Shown here piece by piece: positions 61,050-62,852 of a DNA stretch of 64,000 bases (position 1 is its first letter; the number at the start of each line of letters is the position of its first letter). The notes under the pieces are model-generated. The model had not been told where the DNA came from. It saw only the letters and a list, made by a program, of their open reading frames with translations, and made no database searches. Made by a program: the position numbers and the translations under genes. The DNA comes from Pseudomonadota bacterium (GTDB lineage Bacteria; Pseudomonadota; Gammaproteobacteria; Burkholderiales; Thiobacillaceae), in the NCBI GenBank assembly GCA_021820845.1, contig JAKADC010000008.1:62001-126000 (forward strand), in the 5' to 3' direction.

Positions 61050-61709
61050 ATGATCGACGTGCGCTGGCCGCAGATCGACACCGTCTTCCTCGACATGGAC
61101 GGCACGCTGCTCGACCTCTATTTCGACAACCATTTCTGGCGCGAGCACATGCCGCGCCGCTACGCGGAATACCACGGGCTGGACGAGGCGGTGGCGCGCG
61201 CGCAGCTCGACGCGCACTACGAACGCCACGCCGGCACGCTCAACTGGTACTGCATCGATTTCTGGAGCAGCGAACTTGCGCTCGACATCGTGCAGCTCAA
61301 GGAAGAGGTCGTTCACCTGATTGCCGTGCGCCCGGACGTTCCCGCATTCCTGCAGGCCGTGCGCGCCTCGGGCCGCCGCATCGTGATGGTGACCAACGCC
61401 CATCCCAAGAGCCTCGGACTCAAGATGCGCGAGACTCGCATCGACGCCTATTTCGATGCGCTGATCTCGGCGCACCAGCTCGGCCTGCCGAAGGAACATC
61501 CGGAGTTCTGGCAGGCCCTGCAAGCGGTCGAGCCGTTCGACAAGGCCCGCACCCTGTTTGTCGACGACAGCCTGCCGGTTCTGAAGAGTGCCCGGGCCTA
61601 CGGCATCGCGCACCTGCTGGCGGTGTGCAATCCGGATTCGCGGCAACCGCACAAGGATTGCGGAGAGTTCACGGCGATCACGAGTTTTGAGCAGGTGATG
61701 CCGGCGTAG
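61050..61709 (+). CDS. HAD-superfamily phosphatase (YrfG-like nucleotidase)
   Basis: 219 residues. Motif I FLDMDGTLLDLYFDN, motif II MVTNAHPKSLGLK, motif III/IV around GLPKEHP and LFVDDSLPVLKSA. The YFDNHFW cap context is like YrfG, which dephosphorylates purine nucleotides (GMP, IMP). Fifteen bases after rpoS, possibly in the same message. Confidence 0.88.
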   Translation: MIDVRWPQIDTVFLDMDGTLLDLYFDNHFWREHMPRRYAEYHGLDEAVARAQLDAHYERHAGTLNWYCIDFWSSELALDIVQLKEEVVHLIAVRPDVPAFLQAVRASGRRIVMVTNAHPKSLGLKMRETRIDAYFDALISAHQLGLPKEHPEFWQALQAVEPFDKARTLFVDDSLPVLKSARAYGIAHLLAVCNPDSRQPHKDCGEFTAITSFEQVMPA

Positions 61710-61871
61710 GGGGTTGCGTTCGCAACTGAGATTGTCGAAGCGCTGTTGGGGAGTAGAGAGGATTTCGCAGGACTGAGGGTCGGTGGCCGGGGGTAGCCCG
61801 GCGGCTAGTCACTTTTCTTGTCTCGCCAAGAAAAGTAACCAAAAGAAGGCGACCCCGACATGCCCGAAATC

Positions 61872-61996
61872 CCGAAGATCAAGCGCGCCGGGCGGGCGGC
61901 AAAGAACTCGCCCCGCCTTCGATGTTTTTGACTGGTTTTTGTGGGCGGGGCTCAAACACCTTTGCCGCTGATCCACCCGACGCACTTGATCTTCGG
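61872..61996. repeat. Long hairpin within the left arm
   Basis: CCGAAGATCAAG (61872-61883) pairs perfectly with CTTGATCTTCGG (61985-61996); inside, GCGGCAAAG (61896-61904) pairs with CTTTGCCGC (61960-61968) and GCCCCGCC (61910-61917) with GGCGGGGC (61944-61951). The apex is T-rich. Confidence 0.8.
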
Positions 61997-62158
61997 CGGG
62001 CCTGTGAGGGGAAGAAAAGTCAAAACCAGTTTGACGCTGTGCGGCAGTCCCGAACCGGATCAAGGGCTTCGCGACGGCAAATTTGCGTCCTCACCCAAGT
62101 ATACGAACAATCACGTCATCACTGCCCTGGTTTTGACTTGTCGCCCCTCTCAGTCCCG

Positions 62159-62278
62159 CCGGAAATCGAGTCTCCCGGGCGGATCAGCGGCAAAGGTGTC
62201 TGAGCCCCGCTCACCTTCGAAATCCAAGTCATAGCGGGGCGAGTTCTTTGCCGCCCGTCCGGGAGGCTCGGTTTCCGG
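62159..62278. repeat. Long hairpin within the right arm
   Basis: CCGGAAATCGAG (62159-62170) pairs with CTCGGTTTCCGG (62267-62278), eleven standard pairs and one G-U as RNA from the top strand. Inner stems GCGGCAAAG (62187-62195)/CTTTGCCGC (62246-62254) and GCCCCGC (62204-62210)/GCGGGGC (62234-62240). Same plan as the left hairpin, different outer-stem sequence. Confidence 0.8.
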
Positions 62279-62471
62279 GGTTTCGGGAATGAGCGGGGGC
62301 GCCTTTTCTTGGGTTACTTTCTTTTGGCGAGACAAAAGAAAGTGACTAGCTGCCGGGCTACCCCCGGCCAACGGTCACTCGTTCTGCGAAGACCTCGACT
62401 GCCGACAATTTCCATCGCCATGCCCAGAATGGGCTTCGACGAACTCAGCGCGAACGGCGCGGGGAGCCCGC

Positions 62472-62852
62472 TCAAACCCGCTCGATCAGCACCGCGGCCC
62501 CCACGCTGCGCCCCTCCGTCGCCAGGATGTTGTAGGTGCGGCACAGCGCGCCGATGTCCATCACCTCCAGTCCGATGTTCGCCTCGGCCAGGGCGCGCGT
62601 GAGCGCCGGATGGGGGAAGCGCAGTCTAGCGCCCGTGCCGAGCAGCAGGATGTCGAGTTCGCGCTGCGCGACCCATTCGAAGTGGGCCGGGGTCAGCGCC
62701 TCGAAGCCAAGGCCGGCCCAGGGGGCGATTTCGATGCCGCGCGCGGTCAGCAGCAGGCTCGCGTCGTGGCGCCGGCCGTTGATGAGGACATGGTCCTCGC
62801 CGTAGCCGGTGAAGAGCATCTGGCCGGCGTCGGTGTTGAGATGGAGCTTCAT
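62472..62852 (-). CDS. Mth938-like (DUF498) domain protein
   Basis: 126 residues. Small alpha/beta fold family with LLTARGIEIAPW, LDILLLGTGARLRFPHPAL and MDIGALCRTYNIL, diagnostic of the DUF498/NDUFAF3-like group. The human relative NDUFAF3 assists respiratory complex I assembly; bacterial function is not proven. Divergent from alaA. Confidence 0.9.
   Translation of the reverse strand: MKLHLNTDAGQMLFTGYGEDHVLINGRRHDASLLLTARGIEIAPWAGLGFEALTPAHFEWVAQRELDILLLGTGARLRFPHPALTRALAEANIGLEVMDIGALCRTYNILATEGRSVGAAVLIERV

Follow-up and report, generated by a model that had tools for sequence, protein, structure and literature searches.

A pair of structured arms between two convergent genes

The window, by which we mean the whole 64,000-nucleotide stretch of a Thiobacillaceae contig that was analysed, contains near its right end two long facing arms on either side of a 96-bp centre (97 bp by the ends of the profile matches), lying between two genes that are both directed toward them. 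The left neighbour, which ends at 61709, is presumably a HAD-like gene behind rpoS, and the right neighbour (62472-62852, minus strand) is one we take to be Mth938-like. The arms are 78% identical over their aligned part, or 77% with gaps counted. An earlier note, made from the letters of the DNA alone, had described facing arms, a centre and hairpins here, and these were found as claimed:

61726..61741, minus strand: CTTCGAC..CTCAG repeat outside the left arm, one of a repeat pair; the label REP-like is our assumption
61758..62030, plus strand: left arm, outer tip to the left and inner end to the right (profile match over nearly the whole arm)
61786..61802, plus strand: left tip hairpin GCCGGG-GGTAG-CCCGGC, where footprints are joined
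61811..61836, no strand: left covarying ACTTTTCTTG hairpin (ACTTTTCTTG/CAAGAAAAGT) with loop TCTCGC (consensus helix 2)
61872..61996, no strand: left long stem (consensus helices 6-9, 33 pairs)
62031..62126, no strand: centre, 96 bp, of a compact (cargo-less) copy, from comparison of interiors with relatives
62127..62396, minus strand: right arm, an inverted copy of the left arm (profile match)
62159..62278, no strand: right long stem
62313..62346, no strand: right covarying ACTTTCTTTTG hairpin, counterpart of the left ACTTTTCTTG hairpin
62352..62368, minus strand: right tip hairpin, GCCGGG-CTACC-CCCGGC as read on the plus strand, where footprints are joined
62433..62448, plus strand: second repeat of the pair, outside the right arm, likewise labelled REP-like by assumption

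The CCGAAGATCAAG and CCGGAAATCGAG stems are located at the long-stem positions, 61872-61996 and 62159-62278. The element is not a chance structure, does not code for protein and is not an Rfam family. Rfam searches at gathering level returned no match in the window or in 20 loci of the family, a lax search of the window gave matches at chance level (best E 0.29), and ARAGORN found no tRNA in the window. We also observed that the window's unit, like those at loci L204, L213, L215 and L289-L291, is nested within another pair of inverted repeats; the enclosing pairs are of three different REP-like types, depending on the site, as if repeats had been inserted mid-repeat.

A multi-copy family in Thiobacillus

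The window element is one copy, in compact and gene-less form, of a multi-copy Thiobacillus family. With the whole element as query, matches were found in 34 of 35 same-genus relatives and, weakly, in 5 of 24 other genomes (40 of 60 with the window's own genome counted). The window's genome itself holds the window pair and one decayed piece. In this decayed relative of the arm (G000:C20:267015-267136, locus L003), the small hairpin has a further palindrome, GGAGTACATGCCAAGGCATGTACTCC, within its loop.

Scanning named genomes with the arm core gave 90 stretches. Among the 80 with titles, the names were Thiobacillus, Thiobacillaceae, Hydrogenophilales or those of more broadly named metagenome-assembled genomes (Gammaproteobacteria, Proteobacteria or Betaproteobacteria bacterium), the remainder being one Rhizobium and one Burkholderiaceae MAG; the Rhizobium-titled record and one titled Gammaproteobacteria mb.4 are the same-genus genomes G005 and G032. 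The arm-core pattern matched the window's genome in an order-wide sample and none of the 299 others, one of which belongs to the same genus. As far as seen in these sequence searches, the window's arm type appears confined to the genus.

With a profile built from 108 arms, a unit can be described as two convergent arms of ~265 nt each. Such units are present, among others, in the genome of the cultured strain T. thioparus DSM 505. Neighbouring arms less than 2.5 kb apart were convergent in 105 of 120 cases, the other orders occurring 9, 4 and 2 times (redundant loci included), and some arms were solitary or in non-convergent order. In G032, several contigs (C1, C2, C6, C8 and C18) start or stop within or beside an arm match; with contigs broken at arms, the copy numbers counted in draft genomes are probably too low.

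Arm structure is under selection and looks outward-read

We examined covariation in 62 related arms with a consensus of 60 base pairs, against 500 shuffles and on five measures. Paired cells made up 97.5% (shuffles, 93.1 +/- 0.2), 24 of the 60 pairs had changes on both sides (11.6 +/- 1.4), and there were 176 double-compensated cells (48.3 +/- 5.5), and none of the 500 shuffles attained the observed value on even one of the five measures. Relatedness can lift sequences above shuffles without structure, which weakens this test; a slide control free of that flaw, in which partners were moved by one to three columns, left only 3-7 pairs and 5-12 cells with double changes. Protein-coding arms are ruled out by single-base indels in aligned stems together with the covariation across stems. 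The arm structure is thus under selection, and the claims of the earlier note that the stems covary while staying paired and that structure rather than protein is selected both hold.

A second signal concerns the strand. We call the strand running from centre to tip outward, so that an A-C on the tip-to-centre strand is a G-U on the outward one. For 85 of 92 arms, the outward strand folded as RNA was predicted to be the more stable one (mean, -133.9 versus -123.8 kcal/mol), and when G-U pairs were forbidden this advantage vanished and slightly reversed (-1.3). Over 58 pairs of the tip-to-centre strand, A-C occurred in 67 cells and 30 pairs versus 13 cells and 11 pairs for G-U, both in compact arms (19 versus 3) and in cargo arms (48 versus 10). 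This count omits two loop-closing pairs, one of them U-G in 60 of 62 arms and the other in 11; over all 60 pairs the cells are 67 A-C versus 84 G-U, while the pairs are still 30 versus 13. The apical loop is 59% A on the outward strand, which by eye enters a T-rich stretch past the long stem. A terminator scan showed no excess (2 sites; shuffles, 1.4 +/- 1.3), and a search for promoter-like sites found none. With the caveats from the wobble counts, the structure looks as though it is selected on the outward-read strand, according to these folding models. Both arms show the outward signal, on opposite physical strands, which would make RNA a more natural carrier than a single-stranded DNA intermediate.

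These results bear on two roles that the earlier note had offered. A transcript-end structure for the rpoS-HAD genes finds no support: the family occurs at many unrelated sites, and since the outward strand is the more stable one, the arm adjoining the HAD-like gene is wrongly oriented for the end of its transcript. A putative structured RNA gains from the covariation and the strand signal. We separately rejected a general role as terminator of flanking genes, for which the strand signal is opposite and flanking genes are convergent at 13 of 27 cargo units and 7 of 16 compact ones; under the same crude longest-ORF rule, the figure in other genera was 3 of 17, with one more undetermined.

Most larger interiors enclose one low-GC gene

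What lies between the arms became apparent only from relatives: that the arms are cassette ends enclosing genes cannot be read from the window sequence. We reduced 92 pairs to 55 distinct interiors, 36 of 193-1167 bp and 19 of 70-103 bp. The window's centre is among the latter, and those of the 18 others that were displayed are mostly similar to it. A longest ORF of at least 100 amino acids was present in 31 of the 36 larger interiors, with a median gap of 85 bp before it and 84 bp after it, and cargo interiors had a GC content of 0.48 versus 0.61 for their loci. The 31 cargo ORFs are mostly unrelated, the exceptions being a group of four with one common flank (81-84% identity) and a pair from a different site (54%). 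Because homologues recur only at the same site, movement of cargo between sites was not seen.

Twenty of the 31 ORFs were scanned against Pfam, which assigned a family to 11 of them and revealed no transposase or integrase. The families are, one per line where not repeated:

CAP12/Pycsar TIR
AbiU2 HEPN (twice)
DUF2971
RDD
DUF4145
P63C
RraB
RraB with DUF695
SHOCT
DUF3592

Six cargo proteins were tried with PADLOC; three matched (the candidate families PDC-S35 and PDC-S31, and PD-T7-4 weakly), and neither of the AbiU2 proteins, nor the P63C protein, matched any model. At the inner edges of four loci (L036, L054, L062 and L085) we saw a hairpin headed by GTAG that by eye fits REPs of the RAYT type; on the strand read from the cargo, its sequence is GTAGGGCGCAAT...ATTGCGCC.

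Compact and cargo units differ in how alike their arms are. Arm identity within a unit averaged 75.6% in compact units (70-80%, n = 15) and 84.1% in cargo units (78-95%, n = 31; Mann-Whitney p 1e-7), and in 10 of the 15 compact units, the window's included, one arm resembled the left arm of the window more closely and its partner the right arm. Palindrome instability follows a short-spacer rule. Long palindromes are reported, from work on E. coli, to threaten genome stability (PMC3315005), and the unlikeness of compact arms looks like a limit on how similar the arms are permitted to be.

Recurrent sites and the footprint palindrome

The outer flanks of 165 arms fell into 25 shared clusters and 17 singletons, and at the same intergenic site different species carry different cargo. 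REP-like repeats crowd the unit sites. At the window's own site, 56 genomes searched gave 25 distinct intergenic states: 10 traceless (0-42 bp), 9 with one or two arms, 2 with only the outer REPs, 2 with only a palindrome and 2 with another insert, arm-free where displayed. A second site, on the side of a gene presumed from its translation to be trpC, also had 25 states, of which 16 were traceless, 1 held another insert, 2 had the palindrome only and 6 had arms. The third, which we take from translations to be ampD/purT, had 13 (3 traceless or in another neighbourhood, 3 with the palindrome only, two of these decayed, 3 partial and 4 full).

The palindrome left at such sites, here called the footprint, is 25 bp long, GTTGGCCGGG-N5-CCCGGCCAAC, and is made up of the outer half of each arm tip. 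An exact search found it in 13 places in 12 of 56 genomes. At 12 of these the site has arms in another genome, with both flanks matched in 10 cases at six sites, and the thirteenth is a plain terminator-like hairpin. The exact search selects for the junction; the three site scans were not selected by pattern, and of their seven footprint-only states (2/25, 2/25 and 3/13) three are also in the exact-palindrome list and four are absent from it. The junction may have arisen through a site-specific recombinase, through a deletion between two 6-bp repeats, GCCGGG/CCCGGC, located at the base of a cruciform, or as an insertion target; that the palindrome is nearly absent elsewhere than at unit sites makes an independent target less likely.

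We also compared arms at shared sites in different loci (137 arms) with arms at different sites. The same-site excess in likeness was 0.075 in the outermost 18 nt (z 7.5), absent in the next 22 nt and 0.012-0.022 farther in (z 2.6-5.9). Scaled to the available variation, it was 0.19 in the outer 18 nt and 0.06-0.15 from position 40 inward. Since the scaled excess is also present deeper in the arm, it does not single out turnover of whole units over exchange between fixed arms or plain descent. The outer flanks were compared by eye for a target duplication; with one genome per species, intergenic divergence was too high to place the ends.

Possible readings: cassettes moved in trans, fixed repeats or exchange

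Arms that recur around one foreign-looking gene each suggest an undescribed kind of bacterial gene cassette. We lean, by a little, toward the view that the window element represents, in its empty state, a family of non-autonomous single-gene cassettes whose structured ends are read outward, and that these cassettes are moved in trans or disappear through deletion of the palindrome. That units move, and how, we infer from comparing genomes. Everything inward from the tip hairpin GCCGGG-N5-CCCGGC would be gained and lost as one unit, with a recombinase supplied in trans acting at the palindromic tip core; for loss only, deletion between the 6-bp repeats at the cruciform base could take its place. 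The arms would act as RNA, in the form of outward-facing 3'-end or terminator structures that would seal the cargo transcript from host genes whichever way the cargo gene points. On this reading the window would hold a cargo-free unit, its arms presumably staying dissimilar since long palindromes that are almost perfect and have a short spacer are unstable.

Several points stand against this explanation. Neither an enzyme, nor a target duplication, nor the gain of a unit between sister strains was seen in the genomes compared, one per species. The tip spacers are inverted (GGTAG/CTACC), so an ordinary site-specific recombinase would invert the unit and not excise it. The earlier suggestion of a hairpin element mobile in trans fares in two ways: the multi-copy family, the recurrent sites, the footprints and the lack of an enzyme inside speak for it, and movement itself was not seen.

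A more specific version, which we regard as possible though less likely than not, is a new cassette system that captures single genes, a part of them from defence-associated families, between long arms. The inner arm would be an outward-read RNA that seals the cargo transcript, and the tips would form a palindromic core (at the site, CGTTGGCCGGG-N5-CCCGGCCAACG) for a recombinase in trans that leaves an exact footprint. The joint of the excised unit would be CTAGCNGCCGGG-N5-CCCGGCNGCTAG, which is implied and was not seen.

It is rather unlikely, in our judgement, that these are immobile structured repeats, with arms that spread long ago, ordinary accessory genes between them and footprints that are deletion scars of an unstable palindrome. 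Such repeats would need neither the enzyme nor the target duplication that went unseen, deletion at the GCCGGG repeats yields exactly the footprints found, and the sites are crowded by REP-like repeats, with some arms alone or otherwise ordered. They do not account for a single low-GC gene per unit, set off by ~85 bp on each side in 31 units, for convergence in 105 of 120 neighbours or for cargo that differs between species at the same site.

Fixed slots with homologous exchange, in which the arms provide homology for an enzyme-free swap of cargo between incoming DNA and resident units, seem unlikely to us. Fixed sites, variable cargo and arms similar across the genus fit such exchange, as does the slightly greater likeness of same-site arms over most of their length, beyond the tip; the armless footprints are left unexplained, and the same-site excess is small and may be plain vertical descent.

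Candidate enzymes and vehicles

The earlier note had pointed to a Y1/RAYT-type enzyme, which was searched for. Y1_Tnp matched in 40 of 56 Thiobacillus genomes and not in G000, G005, G012, G019, G020, G024 or G035, seven genomes with 5-24 arm matches and a completeness of 87-100%. Gaps in metagenome-assembled genomes are a caveat to such absences; G024, however, consists of a single contig, and the listed completeness of G005 is 100%. An integron integrase was over the cut-off in 38 of the 56 genomes and absent over that cut-off in G005 and G035, with 17 and 24 arm matches. Each of these enzymes therefore lacks a qualifying match in arm-rich genomes, and we rejected both as the necessary enzyme.

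Movement of the units by a REP-type Y1 (RAYT/IS200-like) transposase is very improbable given the seven arm-bearing genomes with no Y1_Tnp match, even though the transposase is widespread in the genus and GTAG hairpins seen by eye at several inner edges fit the published REP description (PMC2817692). We give still less credence to integron cassettes or their remains moved by a resident integron integrase: the enzyme is common and present in the window's own genome, and integron cargo resembles the arm-enclosed cargo in size and novelty, but two arm-rich genomes have no integrase over the cut-off, the arms are inverted, the units are scattered, and ten integrase neighbourhoods, some of them short contigs, contained no arm match and no match of the 36 larger interiors. 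Cargo taken from integron arrays was likewise rejected for want of any common sequence in those ten neighbourhoods. In the window's genome, the integron integrase over the NCBIfam cut-off lies at G000:C24:323488-324426, and a repeat search beside it gave no clear cassette array.

Plasmid or phage vehicles were also rejected, as the plasmid search gave a single match, 62 nt long, in a 2.5-Mb Variovorax replicon and the phage search gave none.

Comparison with known systems

Mobile insertion cassettes and MITEs with cargo are non-autonomous elements with inverted ends and a passenger gene but no internal transposase. The units resemble them in that inverted ends flank a segment with no transposase of its own, none being present among the 20 scanned of the 31 cargo ORFs, and differ in that their arms are ~265 nt long with a covarying structure, not the short ends of one insertion sequence, and that neither a parent element (one short plasmid match, no phage match) nor a target duplication was found. 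Integron gene cassettes typically hold a single small gene each, in many cases with no known function, drawn from a large pool. This pattern is shared by the units, genus-wide, but they have long inverted arms on both sides and stand singly at many sites with no array.

dif modules are bounded by inverted palindromic cores with a short spacer. Such small modules pose the same puzzle of excision as our units and resemble them in layout; dif modules are described from Acinetobacter plasmids (PMC13141974), and the Thiobacillus units are chromosomal and have long structured arms. REP/BIME sequences with RAYT (PMC2817692) are, like the arms, extragenic palindromes in inverted pairs with GTAG-headed hairpins, which in the units occur at some inner edges. 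The arms are about ten times longer, enclose unrelated genes and reside in several genomes without a Y1 match, and short GT(A/G)G-headed palindromes in high copy, as expected of REPs, were not what we found, GTAG hairpins being present only in some inner edges. The beta-proteobacterial repeat element BRE shares with the arms its betaproteobacterial hosts and mostly intergenic positions and is set apart by its description as ~90 bp long, often tandem and 69% GC (PMC3110155). Among the open-licence PMC papers searched, few of them in full, we found no published description of this cassette-like family.

If the units move, Thiobacillus would possess, in addition to its integrons, a stock of single-gene cassettes spread over the chromosome, the ends of which differ from those of the cassette types compared. 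The footprint offers a direct target for finding an enzyme and the strand signal a direct prediction for RNA-seq, while the cargo list is a source of unknown small proteins, some from defence-associated families.

Compact pairs in other genera of the order

A 74-nt piece comprising the tip and the second hairpin matched 93 of 300 genomes and 47 of 134 genera of the order, Thiobacillus included. Ten other genera yielded 20 distinct convergent pairs, 19 of which span 372-602 bp; if units move, these compact pairs would represent the same system or its ancestor. In these pairs and two Thiobacillus pairs, 39 of 44 arms were predicted to be more stable on the outward strand, and with G-U forbidden 35 of the 44 still were, by less, which indicates that wobble pairs are not the sole source of the outward advantage in the loci of other genera. 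The remaining pair, at L294, is 1545 bp long and by eye has a lipoprotein-like gene inside. A further 26 loci in other genera had a single tip in the stretch examined, and one locus carried an extra tip in the same direction.
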